The position numbers and the translations under genes are program-made. A model generated the notes under the pieces. That model was not told where the DNA came from. It did no database searches and saw nothing but the letters and a program-made list of their open reading frames with translations. From Deltaproteobacteria bacterium (lineage in GTDB: Bacteria; Desulfobacterota; DSM-4660; Desulfatiglandales; Desulfatiglandaceae), in the NCBI GenBank assembly GCA_018644785.1, contig JABGPV010000085.1:1-17669 (forward strand): a stretch of DNA of 17,669 nucleotides, written 5' to 3'. Below, in pieces: positions 254-14,139 of the stretch; within the stretch, counting starts at the first letter, position 1, and the number at the start of each line of letters is the position of its first letter.

Positions 254-2260
254 CTATTCATGCACGCTTGCCGAAAGGACACCACAAAAGGAACACTTTT
301 TTTGTTCGCCGCGCAGATATCCGTGGGAGGGGCATATGCTAAAGGTAGGGGTCAGGGTGAAATACGGTAGCCGGTAATTGTTGACCACTTTCTTGATCAA
401 GGCCTTTATGGCTTCGACATCTCCGACTTGTTCACCCAGATAAAAGTGGAGGGCGGTCCCGCCCGTATATCTTGCCTGCAATTCGTCCTGTAACTCTAAG
501 GTTTCGAAAATGTCGTCCGTGTAGTTCACGGGTAGCTGGGTGGAGTTTGTGTAAAAAGGCGCAGCACCTTTTCTATATTCCGTTTCATTGGCACAGATGC
601 TTTCGGGAAACATTTCCTTATCGAGCATGGCAAGTCGATACGATGTGCCTTCCGCAGGTGTTGCTTCCAAATTGAACATTTCACCTGTTTTATCCTGTAT
701 TTCCGAAAGGATTGTACGGAGATAATCGATGATTTTCAGGGCAAATACCTGTCCTTTCTGACTTCCGATGTCCCGGCCAAATAAGTTCAGGCACGCCTCG
801 TTCATGCCTATTATTCCGATGGTTGAAAAATGGTTTTTCCAGTAAAGCCCGGTGCCTTCTTTGATCTGTCTTAAGTAGAATTTTGAATAGGGATAGAGAT
901 CTTTATCGGTGAATTGCTCTAGAACCTTGCGCTTTATATTGAGGCTCTCTTTGGCAAGATGAACAAGCTTTCCTAAACGCTCGCAAAAATCATTTTCGCT
1001 CTCTGATATATAGCCTATGCGGGGAAGGTTGATGGTCACGACTCCGATTGAACCTGTCAGTGGGTATGAGCCGAAAAGACCGCCGCCTCTTTTCAGGAGC
1101 TCTCTGTTGTCCAGGCGAAGGCGGCAACACATGGATCTTGCGTCTTCAGGCGACATATCGGAATTGACGAAGTTTGAAAAATACGGAATTCCGTATTTTC
1201 CTGTCATTCTCAGGATCGGTTCAAGTACAGGGTTGTCCCAATCAAAATCTTTCGGGATATTGTAAGTGGGTATAGGAAAGGTAAAGACGCGTCCTTTGGC
1301 ATCGCCTTCCATCATGACTTCGGCAAATGCGCGGTTGATCATATCCATTTCTACCTGAAAATCCGAATATGTTTCTTTTTGTTCAACGCCGCCTATGATT
1401 ACCCTTTGATTTTTCAGAGTGAGGGGCGGGGATAGATCTAAAGTAATGTTGGTAAATGGGGTTTGGAAACCGACCCGCGTCGAAATGTTTATGCTAAAAA
1501 TGAATTCCTGAATGGACTGTTTGACACCTCTGTAATCCAGTCTGTCATATCGAATGAAGGGGGCAAGAAGGGTATCAAAATTTGATATGGCCTGAGCGCC
1601 GGCAGCTTCGCCTTGTAAAGTGCAGAAAAAATTGACGAGTTGCCCTAAAGCAGATCTAAGGTGTTTAGGGGGGGCGCTTTCGACTTTTCCCTCAACTCCC
1701 TTGAAGCCGTGCATGAGCATGTCTTTGAAATCCCATCCGTTGCAATAGGGCGCAAGGATGCTGAGGTCGTGTATGTGAAAATCCCCGCTTTTGTGCGCAT
1801 GCCTAATCTCAGAAGGGAAGATGCAATTCAGCCAGTATTCAGAGGTAATGCCGGATGAAATGTAGTTATTGAGCCCCTGGAGGGAATAAAACATATTGCT
1901 GTTTTCTTTGACTTTCCAATCTAGATTCTGGATGTAGTTCTCAACCAAATCAACACTGGCCGTGGTTGCGATAGCTCTAATTTGAGAATGTTGTTCCCGA
2001 TACAGGATGTATGCTTTGGCTGTTTTGGAAAATTGAGATTCAAGGAGTACCTTTTCAACGATGTCCTGAATTTCTTCCACATCAGGTGTAGGGCCAATAC
2101 CCAATTTGCCAGTGTGGGTCAGGACTCTTCTTGTGAGCCAGGCAGCTTCTTTAATGTCAAATTCATCTGTTGCTTTCCCTGCTTTTCGAATCGCTTCGGT
2201 AATCTTTATGGAATCGAATCCAACTACCTGGCCGTCGCGTTTTCTAATATTCTCAAACAT
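254..2260 (-). pseudogene. nrdD: Anaerobic ribonucleoside-triphosphate reductase, 3'-truncated
   Basis: Class III ribonucleotide reductase reduces NTPs to dNTPs with a glycyl radical installed by NrdG. ATG at 2260 (MFENIRKRDG) is chosen over an upstream start because GGGAGGGGAGC lies just before it. The frame gives 668 residues. An ATP-cone occupies about residues 1-90 and the glycyl-radical barrel follows, including the SMCCRLRLD segment near residue 390. The zinc-site region starts with CPSHGYLRGE at about 643 and CSFC at 656-659. It then ends after VLSASVHE at a TAG. The usual RVxGY glycyl-radical loop and following residues are absent, so about 40-60 residues are missing. The IS-like gene starts right after the break. 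Without the radical glycine the enzyme should be inactive, so I call it a pseudogene although the rest of the frame is intact. No nrdG is present in the window. Confidence 0.85.
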
Positions 2261-6940: not shown

Positions 6941-7238
6941 CACATCCCCCAAATGGGGGAAAGAAGGATTTTTTTCGGGTGAAAAGGCCTAAATCAAATG
7001 GTGGCGGGCCGCCCAGACGGCTGCTTGGGTGCGGTCGTTTACGCCCAGTTTGTTGAAAATATGAATGACATGGCTTTTGACAGTATGAGGGCTGATGTTG
7101 AGCATGCGTGCGATATCGTTGTTGCTGGTGCCTTCAGCCAGAATGCAGAGGACCTCCAATTCCCTTTCCGAAAGGGGCATGGGGAGGGACTCGTTTGCTT
7201 CTTCCACATTTCCCGGATCCACTTCCGGGCGGTCTTTT
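6941..7238. repeat. 298-bp duplicated block, copy 1
   Basis: This block covers the 3' end and 3' flank of the Fe-S/LuxR gene, including the palindrome CCCCCAAATGGGGG. It is repeated at 13314-13609 in the same direction with only scattered differences. The copies diverge sharply outside these limits. This copy is within the intact gene and is likely the source. Confidence 0.85.
6946..6959. promoter_or_regulatory. CCCCCAAATGGGGG palindrome, site A
   Basis: This GC-rich dyad lies 135 bases before the DUF3786 start and 30 bases after the LuxR stop. Related dyads occur at 10634, 13319 and 15417. It could be an operator for a LuxR-type dimer or a weak terminator stem; no T-tract follows closely on either strand. 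Confidence 0.4.
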
Positions 7239-7936
7239 ACATTTGAACCCGCTGATGCCTCCTCCTTGTTTTGGCGGTCAGCGATTCTGGCCGTATTGAT
7301 GTTGATGGCCACGGTGGAGACCAGGTTTCCCTCGGCATCATAGACCGGGTAGAAGGCCTGTTCACTCAGAGGAGATTGGATGTGAGGGCATTTTTCAGGG
7401 CCGGATTCCTGAAGGCTCAGGGATGCGGCAAAAGCCATGCAGGAGGGAAGGCCGCATTGGCCGCAGTTGGTTTTCGGCAGTAACTTGAGGATGTTGAGTA
7501 CGGAAACCCTTTTGTGTATTCTGCGGTTGGGTGTTATTTCATCCCGCCGTGAAGATATGTCATTCAAGAAGCTGAACAATGACTTCAGAAAAGCCCTGGC
7601 GTGAGATCGGTCTTCAATCGGCGATATGAGGCCGGCCTGAGGATAAAGAACGCAAGAACAATTTTTGTAAAGGAATCTGATGAATCGGGGCGCTTGGTGA
7701 AGTTCCGCCCGCTCGGCCACAGCGTTCAGATAGGGGAACAGGGGACTGACATCAGTGTTGAGAAGGAAGCTGGCCATCATGGCGGTTTCTGACGTGCTTC
7801 CGGGCTTAAACGAAGGTTCCCGGAAATAGACTCTGAGACCATGAAAGGAAAATTTATCTGCGGTTCCTTCAATAAATCCGCCGACTTTCCTTGCAGGCTC
7901 TTTCCTGGTAAGTGAATTGATCTCCATGAAAAACAT
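6989..7936 (-). CDS. Fe-S domain/LuxR-type HTH fusion regulator
   Basis: The protein has 315 residues. Residues 55-130 match an N-terminal module I associate with Fe-S proteins of anaerobes (FPYLNAV, then ISPIEDRSHAR). A Fes-type cluster motif follows: NCGQCGLPSCMAFA with Cys158, Cys161 and Cys166, and Cys183 in a later CP. A short segment (FYPVYDAEGNLV) and an acidic linker precede the GerE/LuxR helix-turn-helix at 253-315 ([20 protein letters not shown], then [10 protein letters not shown]). It probably binds DNA as a dimer under control of a 4Fe-4S cluster that senses redox or metal state; that is inference. ATG 7936 is used; ATG 7927 is an alternative, and neither has a strong ribosome site. 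The DUF3786 gene downstream is a likely target or partner. Confidence 0.8.
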   Translation of the reverse strand: MFFMEINSLTRKEPARKVGGFIEGTADKFSFHGLRVYFREPSFKPGSTSETAMMASFLLNTDVSPLFPYLNAVAERAELHQAPRFIRFLYKNCSCVLYPQAGLISPIEDRSHARAFLKSLFSFLNDISSRRDEITPNRRIHKRVSVLNILKLLPKTNCGQCGLPSCMAFAASLSLQESGPEKCPHIQSPLSEQAFYPVYDAEGNLVSTVAININTARIADRQNKEEASAGSNVKDRPEVDPGNVEEANESLPMPLSERELEVLCILAEGTSNNDIARMLNISPHTVKSHVIHIFNKLGVNDRTQAAVWAARHHLI

Positions 7937-8089: not shown

Positions 8090-8407
8090 CTACCGGTATC
8101 GTGGCTGGTCTTCTGTTTCTTCATAGTATGCGGTAACACCGATCTCCTTGATCCGCTCCTGCATCTGAATCCATCTCTGTTGCAGGTGTTGGTCAAAATT
8201 GGTCTTGTCACAGGGAAATTCATTGCACTCGAAACAGAAATTCACACTTTTTTCCCGAAAGCAGGCCTGAACACCGCAATCCGGCCATTTGCATGTACCC
8301 TTTCGGCATCCCTCGCAATCGGGTGATGCCAAATAGGTCAACAACCTTTTGAAAGCAGGATAGTCCCTGAAGGGAGGTAAAAAACCGGAGCAATCTTGAA
8401 AAATCAT
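8090..8407 (-). pseudogene. DUF3795 Cys-rich protein, N-terminally truncated
   Basis: The frame reads DYPAFKRLLTYLASPDCEGC, then WPDCGVQACFREK, then NFCFECNEFPC and a tail with ERIKEIGVTAYYEETED. This is the C-terminal two thirds of DUF3795-type proteins, which carry clustered cysteines thought to bind metal. The usual first module with CGLxCxxC near the N-terminus is missing. The first in-frame ATG is at 8407, and an in-frame TAG lies at 8459-8461. The full-length relative at 13618-14139 retains the first module. The break falls where the divergent Nif11-like gene begins, 30 bases away, so an insertion or deletion probably removed the 5' part. Its function is unknown, and it may be dead. Confidence 0.6.
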
Positions 8408-8437
8408 TGATTTGTAGAAAATGAGGGAGGATACATA

Positions 8438-8626
8438 ATGGCACTCGAAAGCGCTCAACTATTTGTTGTAAAGATGAGGGAAGACAAAAATTTCAGACAA
8501 AAGGTCAGTGATGTTGCCGATAGGGAATCATTGTGGGATTTGGTGAAAAATGAAGGTTTCGATTTTGATGAGCGGGATTTGGCGGGAGCAATGGCGGCAT
8601 GTATGACGGAAATGGAAGGATTATGA
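8438..8626 (+). CDS. Nif11-like leader/domain peptide
   Basis: The product has 62 residues. MALESAQLFVVKMREDKNFR and the later ESLWDLVKNEGFDFDERDL match the Nif11 (PF07862) pattern: a first helix, a conserved Asp/Phe/Arg turn, and the GFDF motif before the last helix. Nif11 domains serve as leaders of modified peptides (nitrile hydratase-like and Nif11 precursor families), but also occur alone. Here the protein ends at EMEGL with a single Cys and no long core after a Gly-Gly site, so it may be only a domain-sized relative. A GGAGG site lies 7 bases before ATG. No lanthionine or cyclodehydratase enzyme is in the window. It is the only plus-strand gene between 5465 and 15629. Confidence 0.7.
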   Translation: MALESAQLFVVKMREDKNFRQKVSDVADRESLWDLVKNEGFDFDERDLAGAMAACMTEMEGL

Positions 8627-8688: not shown

Positions 8689-9576
8689 TCATTCTTGTTT
8701 AGATTTGACGGCTTCAACCGTTGCCGAACAGACAAAATCACGAATGTTATTATTCGTCATCTGCTCTCCTGCGGTTTTGGGGTCCTCTTCTTTAAATTGT
8801 ATACCGATTTCCTGAAAGCCGGCGTGGTTCAACATGTCTTTCAAGTCATCTACAAAAGAGGCGCCTGCTATGCAACCGACATAAAGGTCTGGATCTTTAT
8901 GGATATCGTCCGGTACGGGCGCCCTGGAAACCATGTCGGAAACGATAAGACGACCTCCCGGCTTCAGAACCCGGGACACTTCGGAGTAAACCCTTGGTTT
9001 ATCGGGTGAGAGATTGATAACGCAATTCGAGATGACAATGTCCACGGATTCATCGGCAACGGGGAGATTTTCCATTTCGCCCAATCGAAATTCAACGTTC
9101 CCATAATCCGCCCTTTCACTGTTTTCTCTGGACTTGCTTACCATTTCAGGCGTCATGTCCACCCCGATGATGCGTCCATCCTCACCTACCTGCCTGGCAG
9201 CAAGAAAGCAGTCGAAACCGCCGCCACTCCCCAAATCCAGGACTGTTTCTCCGGATTTGACCACAGCCTTGGAGAGGGGGTTTCCGCAACCCAAGCCCAA
9301 ATATGATCCATTCGGCGCTTTTTTAATGTCATCCTCCGTATAAGCAAATTGTTGTGATGAATCTGAACTCGAATCCCCAGCGGGCGCGGTTTCACAGCAA
9401 GATGAAACCATCGGAGGGCCGCAACAACTTCTCCCTTGCGCCTTAAGAGTCAAATCTCTCGAAGGTTCGCAGCAAGAGGGAGCGGCAGGAGACCCACCAC
9501 AACCGCCTCCAGCCGCCTCGGCATAATGCAAACGCACGGTTGTTCTAATTTTCTCTTTTTCCATCCCTTTCATCAT
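8689..9576 (-). CDS. arsM: Arsenite S-adenosylmethionine methyltransferase
   Basis: ArsM methylates As(III) stepwise to methyl- and dimethylarsenicals using SAM. ATG 9576 has AAGGAGG five bases upstream and gives 295 residues. An N-terminal Cys-rich stretch (GGGCGG, SCCEPS, SCCGPP, SCCETA) precedes the Rossmann methyltransferase, whose SAM loop is VLDLGSGGGFD near 112-122. The three cysteines needed for arsenite binding and catalysis in characterised ArsM proteins are present: GLGCGNP (Cys97), ISNCVIN (Cys185) and YVGCIAG (Cys235). The start overlaps the stop of the upstream merB-like frame in ATGA, so the two are probably translationally coupled. Together they suggest a unit that handles organic and inorganic metal(loid)s. 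No ArsR gene is seen nearby. Confidence 0.92.
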   Translation of the reverse strand: MMKGMEKEKIRTTVRLHYAEAAGGGCGGSPAAPSCCEPSRDLTLKAQGRSCCGPPMVSSCCETAPAGDSSSDSSQQFAYTEDDIKKAPNGSYLGLGCGNPLSKAVVKSGETVLDLGSGGGFDCFLAARQVGEDGRIIGVDMTPEMVSKSRENSERADYGNVEFRLGEMENLPVADESVDIVISNCVINLSPDKPRVYSEVSRVLKPGGRLIVSDMVSRAPVPDDIHKDPDLYVGCIAGASFVDDLKDMLNHAGFQEIGIQFKEEDPKTAGEQMTNNNIRDFVCSATVEAVKSKQE

Positions 9577-10322
9577 GTTCCTCCTTTTGAACCGGGTAGC
9601 ATTGTTCGCTCTCTTATTCTTGGGCCTGTGCCCCATAAAGAATTGTTCTTTCCGAGTTCCATAACAACCTGCATCATTTCCTTTCGATATTCCTTGAGGT
9701 GCGACATCCAGTTGCCCTCCAGCTTGGCCGTAAAATAGGGAATTGCAAACAACTTTCGCACATCTGCCAGGGAGATTAGGCCGTCGTCCTTCGCATTCGA
9801 GTAGCCTGCCCATCTTCTGGCATGTTCTTCCGACCGGAAGAAATTCATGGTGCTTCAGGAATAGGCCCAATCTTCATGCCATTTCCAGGTAGGAACCGAC
9901 ATGTAGCCTACAAGCCTCTCGGGCTCAATCTTTAGCGTTTCACCGTCTCGCATCTCAACCACCATGGGCTCCCCACAATCCAGGCAGGGGGCTTCGATCC
10001 GCACCAGCTTTCCGGGAAAATTCCAGCTGACCGCCAGCGAGTCAAAGGCTCACAACCCGAACCACTTCTGTTTGTCCTCCACACTGATACGATATTGGGT
10101 CGGCTGGCTGCTGAAGGGAGGGAAGGTGGCTATGTAATCGGTGTTGGGGTAGAGCCAGCCTGGTGCCCCCGCTTTGAACAACCCATGTAGAATCAGGCGG
10201 CCCTGCTTCATGCTAACCCCCAGGGCTCGGGCGATGTCCGTATAATGCGGGGCCGGGCCGTTGGCCACTATGTAACGCATGATAAAATCATAGGCTTTAT
10301 TTTGAAAATTGGCGTTTGTCAC
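9573..10322 (-). CDS. merB: MerB-like organomercurial lyase with two UGA (selenocysteine) codons
   Basis: One continuous frame from GTG 10322 (AGGAG, 7 bases upstream) to TGA 9573-9575 encodes 249 residues if UGA at codons 91 (10050-10052) and 156 (9855-9857) is decoded. Residues 1-80 form a winged-helix-like region (HYTDIARALGVS) as in MerB. Then come GL-U-AFD, APCLDCG, a VEPA-like IEPERLVGY segment and YS-U-STMNFF. In Tn21-type MerB the matching positions are Cys96 of CALD with Asp99, and Cys159 of SFCCHVHFF, the residues that cleave carbon-mercury bonds. Both catalytic cysteines are therefore UGA here and the Asp (94) is kept. Each UGA is followed by a hairpin placed like a bacterial SECIS. 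The frame ends in an ATGA overlap with arsM. A pseudogene with two chance nonsense mutations exactly at these codons is unlikely. Substrate may differ from alkylmercury. No selA, selB, selC or selD is in the window. Confidence 0.85.
9825..9842 (-). promoter_or_regulatory. SECIS-like hairpin after the second merB UGA
   Basis: On the minus strand TTCTTCCGGTCGGAAGAA forms a perfect 7-bp stem with loop GGTC. Counting the U of UGA 9857 as 1, the loop is at 23-26, within the usual bacterial SECIS range, and it begins with GG. The codons also encode the conserved FFRSEE, so part of the symmetry may reflect protein constraint. Confidence 0.75.
10028..10044 (-). promoter_or_regulatory. SECIS-like hairpin after the first merB UGA
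   Basis: TGAC and GTCA pair, followed inward by a bulged T and CG/CG, around a CTGG loop at 16-19 from the UGA. An alternative fold, GCTG/CAGC with loop GCGGT at 19-23, also presents a G at the loop start. It is weaker than the hairpin after the second UGA. Confidence 0.5.
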
Positions 10323-10689: not shown

Positions 10690-11511
10690 TTATCCGGCCT
10701 GCTTTCTCGGTTCGTAGTCGATCAGGCTTCCGTTTTTATCAAACTCGAAACGACAACAGTTGAGGAGCATGCCTTTCAACATTTCCCGGCCCCTCTGAAC
10801 TCGGGATTTGGCTCCGGAAAGGGACAATCCCTCCTGCTCGGCAAGGTCTCTCTGTCTCAAACCCTGAATATCGGAGAGCATGAGCGCCCGGCGGTAATGG
10901 TCCGGCATCCGTTCGATCATGGGAACAATACACCTTGCGATGTTCTCTTGCGCCTTTTCACTCTCCCCTGCTTCAGCGGAAGCGATCGTCTCCGGGAGTT
11001 CGCCGGTTTCCTTTCGGGTTCGATAATAGTCAATGATGACATTCCGGGTTATTCGATAGATCCAGCTTCGAATCCGGGTGTTGTCGTTGAGGGTGTGAAA
11101 TTTGACGTGCACCTTCAGGAATACTTCTTGAAGGATGTCTTCCACCACTGATACGTCGCTTATACGCTTCCGTATGAAACCCTGGAGCGGGTCATTATAC
11201 TCTTTCCAAATCGATTCCATGTCAGTCATTTTCTTCTGTTCCAACCACTTTATTTTTTGGGCCTCTACGAACTGTGCGCTCACCTTGTGTGCAGCGACAG
11301 CCATCACAATACTCTGAACCGCGCCCATCTCTTCCTTCGTAATGCCTTCTTTTTCGGCCACGCCGGAATAGTACTTCATTCAGGGGTAGCATCCAAGTGC
11401 CATGGCGACGGACATGTGGAGCATAATAGTTGTTTTCTGATCCACTGTCTTATTATAACGTGTCGCGTTGTAAAAATCATCAAATGTCTTCTGTTGTTTT
11501 TCCGATAACAC
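10690..11511 (-). CDS. AhpD-like selenocysteine domain fused in frame to a SigZ-type ECF sigma factor
   Basis: With UGA at 11380-11382 read as Sec44, one frame runs from GTG 11511 (AGGAGG, 6 bases upstream) to 10690, giving 273 residues. Residues 1-94 match AhpD/carboxymuconolactone-decarboxylase-like proteins: HMSVAMALGCYP-U-MKYYS holds the CxxC redox motif as CxxU, then GVAEKEGIT and SIVMAVAAHKV. AhpD-like selenoproteins with CxxU are a known type. From Met95 (11229) the frame continues as a SigZ-like sigma factor: region 2 with VEDILQEVFLKVH and RSWIYRITRNVIIDYY, region 4 with LSDIQGLRQRDLAEQEG and SGAKSRVQRGREML, and the C-terminal CCRFEFD seen in SigZ. There is no stop between the parts. 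The sigma part could also start alone at 11229, though only a weak AGAAG site precedes it. A redox-sensing domain tied to a sigma factor suggests thiol/selenol control of transcription. A terminator follows. Confidence 0.8.
11353..11368 (-). promoter_or_regulatory. SECIS-like hairpin after the AhpD UGA
   Basis: TTC-c-GGC and GCCGAA pair with one bulged C, giving six base pairs and a GTG loop at 22-24 from the UGA. Position and G-first loop agree with bacterial SECIS elements and with the hairpin after the second merB UGA. Confidence 0.6.
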
Positions 11512-12139: not shown

Positions 12140-13231
12140 CTATTGCTTAGATATGGCCATCGGTACAACTCCCCGCCTTTTGGCAATCTCCATAAACATG
12201 TGCATGCCGGTTTCCGGCGGTGTAACTCGCTCATTTTCGGGCTTTTGTTTCAATTGAATTGCTTGAGGGGGACAAACGTTCACGCAAAGGCTGCAACCGA
12301 TACACCTGTCCTGGTCGATTTCCGCCGCATCATCCCTTTCAACATGAATGGCATCCATGGGACAATGCTCCAGGCAGGTTTCGCAAGCTTCGCACAGATC
12401 CCGGTTTACAAACGCTTGAAAGCTCGGTTTGAGCACTTCTGCCGGGCGTGGATGTTTCTTTAGTGTGCCAAGGACAACACAACAATCGGAGCAGCAGTTG
12501 CAGATATTTGCCGGCGCCTGGGTGTTAAAAGGCATGGTCACCAGTCCGGCATCCTCGCACAGATCAAGTATTTCCAGCGCTTCATCGGTGCTAATTTGCC
12601 GCCCCGTTCCACGGTCCATATAATACCGGGCCTGGGAACCGAACATGAGGCATGTTTCCACCGGCTTGTCGCAACTTTTATCGAGAACGCCCTTTTGCAC
12701 CCTGCAAATACACTTTGTCACGGCGATCAAGTCCTGGTTCCTTACGATCTCCCGGGAATGATCATAAACCGCCATGGGGTATGACACATCAATTTCCCTG
12801 TTCACCGGAATGGGCCTGTGTATCAGGACAGGCTCCGTTTCAGTGAAATTCTTGTGGAAAACTTCCTTATAATAGCCCTCGAAAAGCGAGGCCTGTGTTT
12901 CATCCATGGTTTCGGACTGTTGTTCGAAAATCCCCGGAGCAAAAGGCAGGGCGCCAAATTTAGCAACGCCTTTTTTACGACGACGGAAAACGAGACCCTT
13001 TTCAAACATCTGATCAAGAATCTCCTCAACGGCTCCTGACTTCTTATTGCCGCATTTTGCTATAGACTCGGCCGTTTCGGGTTTCAAGTCCAGGAACAGG
13101 AAAAGCTCCGCCTCCTCAGGCTTGAAAAACTTCTTAAGTATTTGCATCTCAATTCCGGATTCGGCGTTCGGAAAGCCCACACCGTACTGGTCGAGTTTTT
13201 GCCTGAGCCTCTCGTAAATCTGGTTTTCCAT
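12140..13231 (-). CDS. Winged-helix/4Fe-4S dicluster ferredoxin-like protein
   Basis: ATG 13231 (MENQIYERLR) has GGAGG five bases upstream; ATG 13243 is a possible alternative. It encodes 363 residues. Residues 25-95 look like a winged helix (FKPEEAELFLFLDLKPETAE, then LDQMFEKGLVFRRR). The middle holds CICR, CDKPVETC and an unusual Cys group NICNCCSDCC, near 174-251. The C-terminus has two ferredoxin motifs: CEACETCLEHCP and CIGCSLCVNVCP, for two 4Fe-4S clusters. This architecture is common in Desulfobacterota and is thought to move electrons to unnamed partners; the substrate is unknown. It is soluble, with no export signal. A palindrome (site C) lies about 90 bases upstream, where an activator might bind. 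The truncated LuxR copy lies directly upstream of it. Confidence 0.8.
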   Translation of the reverse strand: MENQIYERLRQKLDQYGVGFPNAESGIEMQILKKFFKPEEAELFLFLDLKPETAESIAKCGNKKSGAVEEILDQMFEKGLVFRRRKKGVAKFGALPFAPGIFEQQSETMDETQASLFEGYYKEVFHKNFTETEPVLIHRPIPVNREIDVSYPMAVYDHSREIVRNQDLIAVTKCICRVQKGVLDKSCDKPVETCLMFGSQARYYMDRGTGRQISTDEALEILDLCEDAGLVTMPFNTQAPANICNCCSDCCVVLGTLKKHPRPAEVLKPSFQAFVNRDLCEACETCLEHCPMDAIHVERDDAAEIDQDRCIGCSLCVNVCPPQAIQLKQKPENERVTPPETGMHMFMEIAKRRGVVPMAISKQ

Positions 13232-13318
13232 ATGGTCCTCCATATTGGGTTCTACTCCTCCAAAACGGCTGTTCTTGTTAATAAGGGAAACTATAAGCGC
13301 AATTTCGAAGGTTCACAT

Positions 13319-13332
13319 CCCCCAAATGGGGG
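13319..13332. promoter_or_regulatory. CCCCCAAATGGGGG palindrome, site C
   Basis: This dyad is identical to site A and came with the duplicated block. It now lies 87 bases before the start of the winged-helix/ferredoxin gene. It may serve as an operator there or be passive baggage of the duplication. Confidence 0.4.
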
Positions 13333-13360
13333 AAAGAAGAATTTTTTCGGGTGAAAAGGC

Positions 13361-13609
13361 CTAAATCAAATGGTGGCGGGCCGCCCAGACGGCTGCTTGG
13401 GTGCGGTCGTTTACGCCCAGTTTGTTGAAAATATGAATGACATGGCTTTTGACAGTATGGGGGCTGATGTTGAGGATGCGTGCGATATCGTTGTTGCTGG
13501 TGCCTTCAGCCAGAATGCAGAGAACCTCCAGTTCCCGCGCCGAAAGGGGCATGGGAAAGACCCGTTTGCTTCTTCCACATTTTCCGGGTCCACATCCGGG
13601 CGCTCTTTA
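13361..13609 (-). pseudogene. LuxR-type HTH fragment, duplicate of the Fe-S/LuxR C-terminus
   Basis: The frame from ATG 13552 to 13361 gives 63 residues, nearly identical to the last 63 of the regulator at 6989 ([20 protein letters not shown], then [10 protein letters not shown]). Upstream the matching linker ([17 protein letters not shown]) is still readable to 13609 but is one base out of frame with the HTH. The Fe-S sensing part is absent. A free HTH could still be made from ATG 13552 and might compete for sites, but no strong ribosome site is present (AAACGGG only). Most likely a non-functional copy. Confidence 0.7.
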
Positions 13610-13617
13610 GAAATGGT

Positions 13618-14139
13618 TTAGAGGGATCCGTCCAATCCTTCGGCAACGTCCTGTTTGCAGGCACGACAAGCCTGCGAACCTCTGAAAAGCGGTTCACCGC
13701 AGGAAGGGCAGTGATAGCGTTCACATTCAGCCCGTGCCCATTCCACACTCCCTTTTTCGTCGCCGTGTTTGGCCACTTCGGTGCGCCATAGGGGAATCGC
13801 CCTTTTTGCAACCCGTACGCCTGTGGCATACCCAAAATTTTCGATCTGATCACAAGGCCATTCAACGCATTGATGGCATGAATAGTAATCTTTGGATTTT
13901 ACGCAACTTCGGATCTTGCACTGTTGACAATACCCATAGCGCTTTTTCGGCGGTTCCGGCTGCATGCATCCACAGCACTGGGTTTCTTCAGGTTTAGTTC
14001 CATAAACGCGGCCCATCACCGCCTTGAACTTTTCATTTTCGTCTCTGGTCGCAATGTAGATGCCGCAAGCACCGCAATAGAGTCCGCATGGCGCCATTAA
14101 TTCTCTATTTTGGATCTCTTCTTCAGTCCAGCCTTTCAT
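13618..14139 (-). CDS. DUF3795 Cys-rich protein
   Basis: The product has 173 residues from ATG 14139 with GGAGG 8 bases upstream. The first Cys group (APCGLYCGACGIY) is the DUF3795 hallmark. CCGCMQ, YCQQCKIRSC and CHQCVEWPC follow. A further zinc-ribbon-like end (HCPSCGEPLFRGSQACRAC) is added. Fifteen or more cysteines suggest metal or cluster binding. The function is unknown; such proteins are common in anaerobes. The start codon lies inside the overlapping tail of the truncated thioesterase frame, on the same strand. It follows the EFR1-like gene, so the three probably share a transcript. A shorter relative is at 8090-8407. Confidence 0.8.
   Translation of the reverse strand: MKGWTEEEIQNRELMAPCGLYCGACGIYIATRDENEKFKAVMGRVYGTKPEETQCCGCMQPEPPKKRYGYCQQCKIRSCVKSKDYYSCHQCVEWPCDQIENFGYATGVRVAKRAIPLWRTEVAKHGDEKGSVEWARAECERYHCPSCGEPLFRGSQACRACKQDVAEGLDGSL

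Follow-up and report, generated by a model that had tools for sequence, protein, structure and literature searches.

The window, by which we mean the whole stretch of 17,669 nucleotides that was analysed, carries a merB-family gene with two in-frame UGA codons, followed by an arsM-like gene (Table 1). The coordinates and the single MerB-like frame reported in the initial annotation were confirmed, on the minus strand, which the annotation had not named: the frame, read from 10322 to 9573, contains only two internal stops, TGA at codons 91 and 156, has an AAGGAG ribosome-binding site immediately 5' of its GTG start, and matches the Pfam family MerB (PF03243) over residues 70-186 with an E-value of 1.7e-21 (76.9 bits, above the cut-off of 27). 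A phmmer comparison with PDB sequences places codon 91 on Cys96, Asp94 on Asp99, Cys113 on Cys117, and codon 156 on Cys159 of MerB; both UGAs do align with the catalytic cysteines, as had been claimed. The numbering of Cys96, Asp99 and Cys159 agrees with that of PMC4525700, according to which the metal is held by Cys96 and Cys159 and Asp99 has an accessory role. Both cysteines of the C-L-D-C motif are conserved without exception among 42 aligned family members.

Table 1. Features of the merB-like locus, in window coordinates
Feature	Position	Strand	Remarks
arsM-like arsenite methyltransferase gene	8689..9576	(-)	325 bits against a cut-off of 263
Double-UGA merB-family gene	9573..10322	(-)	GTG start at 10322; 249 residues; ends TGA TGA
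Predicted SECIS hairpin 2, UUCUUCC-GGUC-GGAAGAA	9825..9842	(-)	19 nt after UGA 156; 7 bp, 4-nt loop
UGA codon 156, predicted Sec, then Ser (YS-UGA-STMNFF)	9855..9857	(-)	at MerB Cys159 place
C-L-D-C motif, Cys113 and Cys116	9975..9986	(-)	Cys113 at MerB Cys117
Predicted SECIS hairpin 1, CUGGC-GGUCA-GCUGG	10023..10037	(-)	17 nt after UGA 91; 5 bp, 5-nt loop
Asp94 codon	10041..10043	(-)	at MerB Asp99 place; Glu in 35/36 double-UGA copies
UGA codon 91, predicted Sec (GL-UGA-AFD)	10050..10052	(-)	at MerB Cys96 place
SigZ-type ECF sigma factor gene	10690-11379	(-)	5' of merB-like gene

Because the first ATG of arsM overlaps the merB-like stop, the two genes probably form one operon. The sigZ gene is unlikely to belong to it, as a terminator-like hairpin (10649-10633) lies in between, such sites being no commoner than in shuffles. 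Among 29 loci compared, including the window, arsM stands directly 3' of the merB-like gene in the window only, and a blastp search of the window ArsM against the neighbour ORFs of these loci gave one weak match, at L055 (26% over 119 residues). We found no conserved operon: clusters of neighbour ORFs, which were called crudely from stop to stop on contigs that in many cases end nearby, were common to at most three of the 29 loci, window included. Pfam searches (E limits of 1e-8 or 1e-12) with 30 of the 45 near neighbours listed at the other loci named 22 and left eight without a match; the named ones are mixed, mostly metabolic or electron-transfer proteins (including three ETF, two AMP-binding and one acyl-CoA dehydrogenase). 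No mer genes were found among the neighbours scanned in the window and among these 30. Elsewhere in the window, two DUF3795 genes (8090-8458 and 13618-14139, minus strand) flank the merB-arsM pair, and the minus-strand gene 6989-7936 combines a putative Fe-S cluster domain (PF04060) with a LuxR-type (GerE) DNA-binding domain, its product being possibly an Fe-S sensing regulator. The DNA-binding part of this gene corresponds to a 237-nt direct repeat, 94% identical between 6947-7183 and 13319-13555, and the second GerE copy forms a short ORF (13361-13552) between the genes 12140-13243 and 13618-14139.

Relatives with two UGA codons

TGA occurs at the same two places in 36 distinct copies of the gene, including that of the window (36 of 43 aligned rows), and since so many distinct copies carry both codons at the same places, these are not there by chance. 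The copies are diverse (median pairwise identity 53%, lowest 36%), and within the matched stretch they contain neither a third in-frame TGA nor any other stop. A genome scan gave five matches. Four are relatives of 46-52% identity that carry both TGAs, three of them in Deltaproteobacteria MAGs and one in a MAG of Chloroflexota; in the fifth, L005, homology is lost after residue 85. Profile searches matched 32 genomes among 297 kin of G001 (E limit 1e-8), with two TGAs in 26 of 38 rows, and 13 genomes among 294 kin of G004 (E limit 1e-20), with two TGAs in nine of 14 rows; the other 12 and five rows, respectively, are Cys/UGA loci, fragments and distant MerB-like genes. The seven aligned rows outside the 36 belong to L069 (two frameshifted pieces), L075 (a fragment) and L084, L086, L087 and L088 (not double TGA). 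Excluded from the 43 rows were L076, which duplicates the locus L004, and, for other loci, the first copies (L001-L003, L018-L047); L089 is absent from them as well, presumably as it falls below the 80-bit floor.

Three copies are broken: L069 is frameshifted, and L075 and L005 have no homology beyond residue 82-85. Decay in close relatives had been named in the initial annotation as a sign of a pseudogene; with 36 intact double-UGA copies against these three, it is not the rule. The breaks of L005 (2-127) and L075 (about 1548-1851, minus strand) nearly coincide, at residues 82-85, and lie shortly ahead of the site of the first UGA. In L088, a more distant MerB-like gene (about 1501-2115 on the minus strand of that locus) combines TGT at the position of Cys96 with TGA at that of Cys159, and perhaps represents a second clade of MerB-like selenoproteins.

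Frequent exchange between cysteine and selenocysteine is typical of genuine selenocysteine sites. Read from the DNA, loci L084 and L086 have TGC at position 91 and TGA at 156. Among the 120 proteins listed of 698 database matches, P0012, P0034 and P0103 have Cys at both positions, 37 long or full-length proteins have W at both, 78 carry Cys at 91 and stop at 156 or close to it, and two shorter ones have W at 91; these counts are biased, both by the listing of 120 of the 698 and by the length range of the search (0.55 to 1.75 times the query), which excludes double-UGA genes truncated at codon 91 (about 90 residues). As the initial annotation had anticipated, homologues therefore show Cys or UGA at both positions, in the double-UGA copies, in the two TGC/TGA loci and in the three Cys/Cys proteins. 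Parsimony on a 157-tip gene tree, made without position 91 and without the sequence beyond residue 154, gave 15 changes at position 91 and four at 156, numbers that are rough because support is weak at some nodes and the labels of database proteins are for the most part indirect. Of the 80 'CU' labels, 77 were assigned from proteins truncated at about 155 residues and three were read from DNA; W/W in database proteins accounts for 37 of the 73 'UU' labels. P0049, P0052 and P0116 are omitted from this tree.

Signs of selenocysteine insertion

Each of the two UGAs is followed by a predicted SECIS hairpin, at a spacing counted from the UGA to the loop. In the published bSECIS model, the stem has 4-16 bp, the loop has 3-9 nt with a G among its first two positions, the hairpin lies 16-37 nt after the UGA and the minimum free energy is at most -7.5 kcal/mol (PMC13188914); both window hairpins lie within its ranges for stem, loop, G position and spacing. 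The bare upper stems of the window, at -3.9 (hairpin 1) and -7.4 kcal/mol (hairpin 2), both fall short of the published energy limit, which counts against them, the means over the 36 copies being -6.6 and -8.5 kcal/mol. All six consensus pairs of hairpin 1 are present in 35 of the 36 copies and all seven of hairpin 2 in 32, and the loop reads GGUC in 27 and 35 copies, respectively. The window is the one exception for hairpin 1, which with five of six pairs and its low stability is the weakest of the set, a fact that weighs against it. The 60-nt stretches of the window fold at -16.4 and -13.9 kcal/mol; the first of these folds is not hairpin 1, and that the minimum-energy structure around UGA 91 is a different hairpin likewise counts against it. 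Loss of hairpin 1 in Cys/UGA loci was dropped as a test, as there are only two such loci, of which L084 keeps the hairpin despite its TGC at codon 91 and the other has it changed. A scan of the window for TGAs with a SECIS-like hairpin and at least 30 open codons on each side, limits that were chosen after the hairpins had been seen, let four TGAs pass, two of them codons 91 and 156.

The choice among synonymous codons is unusually uniform where the hairpins lie. Mean excess codon homogeneity is 0.52 over the five scored positions of residues 95-100 (hairpin 1) and 0.40 over the eight positions of residues 160-167 (hairpin 2), as compared with 0.05 at the 171 other positions, and the joint mean of the two ranges, which were picked after the alignment was seen, was reached by none of 100,000 random draws. 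Where a copy has the commonest residue, the codon is always TCG for residue 95 (28/28), CTC for 161 (26/26), TTC for 162 (36/36), CGG for 163 (35/35) and TCG for 164 (36/36); codons 155, 157 and 158, which flank UGA 156, are similarly uniform. This frozen codon choice is the strongest sign of SECIS elements.

The initial annotation had also looked to the sel genes for a check, which we carried out on 34 relative genomes (31 with the double-UGA gene, the frameshifted G024 and two with Cys/UGA). The tRNA-Sec exceeds the Rfam cut-off in 4/4 and 26/30 of them, that is in 30/34 (the match in G162 being marginal, 47.2 bits against a cut-off of 47), and selB exceeds its cut-off in 3/4 and 27/30, again 30/34; one or the other is found in all 34 genomes and both in 26. 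Among 14 named control genomes, five exceed the cut-off of the tRNA-Sec model and two that of the selB model. The machinery is thus present in these relatives, which makes for an indirect test of the window gene, and selB is also common in kin that lack the merB-like gene (29/40 against 30/34, Fisher p 0.15), so that a tracking of the merB-like gene by sel genes was rejected as not significant and the presence of sel genes is permissive, not diagnostic. The central claim of the initial annotation, that both UGAs encode selenocysteine, is supported, and the tests on relatives (sel genes, homologues and decay) brought nothing that refutes it.

Relation to known systems, function and alternatives

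An AlphaFold2 model of the protein, computed from 42 sequences with Cys in place of Sec, has a mean pLDDT of 92.7. In Foldseek it gave 11 PDB matches with E <= 0.001, every one of them MerB or MerB2, at moderate likeness (TM 0.44-0.59 by query, rmsd 4.7-6.8); the match to 3f0o (E 7.4e-12, TM 0.54 by query and 0.67 by target) is in keeping with a MerB fold. With MerB of the R831b type (PDB 3f0o, 3f2g, 1s6l; PF03243), the window protein shares the fold of the model, the metal-binding places, the aspartate and Cys117. By contrast, it has UGA in place of the strict Cys/Cys pair, possesses the C-L-D-C motif and lies far below the cut-offs of the canonical MerB models NF009710 (35.7 of 193 bits) and NF033555 (34.5 of 200 bits). 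The aspartate, which the initial annotation considered kept, is so in the window but not in the family: 35 of the 36 double-UGA copies have Glu, which preserves a carboxylate and nevertheless, as a departure from MerB, weighs against our interpretation. MerB2 (PDB 5c17), also of MerB fold, is the best PDB sequence match of the window protein (8.8e-6), but it retains both cysteines and carries Ser where MerB has Asp99; an 'Organic mercuric lyase MerB2' appears in a list of predicted selenoproteins that does not give the number or place of its Sec (PMC7435645).

Another relative is SaoL (NF040728) of the SAO system, a MerB-like selenoprotein and the best NCBIfam match of the window protein. Membership in this family was rejected on score, since the window protein reaches 56.2 of 140 bits and eight relatives also remain below the cut-off (33.6 to 45.4 bits). 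PMC13188914 gives SaoL a single Sec, within a C-U motif. Because the model ends at codon 156, this Sec probably occupies the place of MerB Cys160 and not Cys159; the 'Alkylmercury lyase MerB-like protein' of PMC9312934 has the same example accession. No Sao families occur among the matches listed for nine neighbouring window proteins. Also comparable, as multi-Sec proteins for metalloid chemistry, are the arsenite methyltransferase/AhpD and arsenite methyltransferase/DUF2284 selenoproteins (NF041537 and NF041536; PMC13188914), whose domain make-up is different; the window ArsM matches their methyltransferase part only, below cut-off. In the open-access literature searched we found no MerB in which both catalytic positions are Sec, and a word search of the main text of PMC2398784, PMC5029168 and PMC12013277 gave neither MerB nor mercury nor lyase; an earlier report may still exist. 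The initial annotation, which knew of no double-Sec MerB, needs an amendment here: the one-Sec SaoL and the 'MerB2' entry were already in print.

That the window encodes a double-selenocysteine protein of the MerB family is well supported by the sequence comparisons, and we hold it highly probable that each UGA is read as Sec by means of its own SECIS hairpin in what is likely an organometal lyase with two selenols. It would be, in that case, a likely overlooked selenium enzyme for breaking metal-carbon bonds. By analogy with MerB, SelB and tRNA-Sec would insert Sec at each UGA, the two selenolates would bind the metal of R-Hg+, and the carboxylate of Asp94 or Glu would hand a proton to the leaving carbon; R-H would be released, and thiols would then remove the metal. 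The substrate in this scheme would be methylmercury or another organomercurial; an organoarsenical would be a further candidate.

Two explanations would do away with selenocysteine altogether. UGA might be read as tryptophan in another genetic code, as some public-metagenome gene callers seem to do, and the 37 full-length W/W proteins among the 120 listed of 698 matches are most simply explained by a TGA=Trp code. Yet TGA terminates six of the 15 window genes, and the arsM reading frame closes with a TGA right at the end of its family model (residue 296 of 297; model position 270 of 272), both of which speak against a changed code and lead us to reject it for the window; the lack of internal TGA in other window genes is a consequence of gene calling. 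The three Cys/Cys relatives, the SECIS-like hairpins with their frozen synonymous codons, and selB and tRNA-Sec in the relatives' genomes make tryptophan more improbable still, and we give this explanation very little credence. Even less probable is a dead merB with two nonsense mutations, or a sequencing error, suggested by the two in-frame stops and by the breaks in L069, L075 and L005; it was rejected because the conservation contradicts it, 36 distinct copies having the two TGAs at identical codons and no other stop in the matched stretch.

The other alternatives keep both selenocysteines and concern what the protein does. It could be a metal-binding sensor or carrier instead of an enzyme, with N-terminal helices that could bind DNA: the AlphaFold2 model starts with three helices, there are weak and short Foldseek matches to DNA-binding domains (E > 0.5, about 47-68 columns), and no gene neighbour is widely common to the loci. 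MerB itself, however, has a similar N-terminal segment, the significant Foldseek matches are to MerB only and the proton-transfer carboxylate is retained, so that we regard a sensor or carrier as improbable. A double-Sec lyase acting on another organometal or organometalloid, such as methylated arsenic from the neighbouring ArsM, deserves more weight, even if it seems to us rather unlikely. The overlap of the arsM start with the merB-like stop, the distance of the protein from the curated NCBIfam MerB cut-offs, the mostly metabolic and electron-transfer, not mer, character of the named neighbours elsewhere (22 of 30), and the presence of MerA above its curated cut-off in only five of the 34 relative genomes would all fit such a substrate. 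Nonetheless, none of the other 28 loci has arsM next to the merB-like gene, which makes the adjacency a weak hint of organoarsenicals, and the two metal-binding positions of MerB plus a carboxylate are retained. Also in favour of mercury, hgcB, a mercury methylation gene, is commoner in the double-UGA genomes among the kin of G001 (13/23 against 66/274 others, p 0.002, uncorrected for kinship and for other families tried, and with the frameshifted G024 among the 23); among the kin of G004 it was found in 0/11. The hgcB matches in G125 and G292 each run through one TGA, in line with a published Sec-bearing HgcB (PMC13188914).

Methylmercury lyase activity is a tentative reading, to which we give slightly less than an even chance: a widespread and unannotated double-Sec family in Sec-using Deltaproteobacteria and Chloroflexota, mostly without MerA, would carry out a selenium-based demethylation, a route hidden from gene surveys because standard gene calls terminate at UGA. 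A 2021 survey of mer genes treats Cys96, Asp99 and Cys159 as strictly conserved, and its main text does not mention selenocysteine (PMC8261052); it would be likely to miss double-UGA genes. Should methylmercury be the substrate, the family would provide a way of demethylation that probably goes uncounted in surveys of merB, as public gene calls seem to end at the UGA (about 155 residues) or to give Trp. The use of selenium for both metal ligands would also constitute a natural experiment on the part that the softness and acidity of the ligands play in C-Hg cleavage and product release, for which natural Cys/Sec and Cys/Cys relatives are available for comparison.
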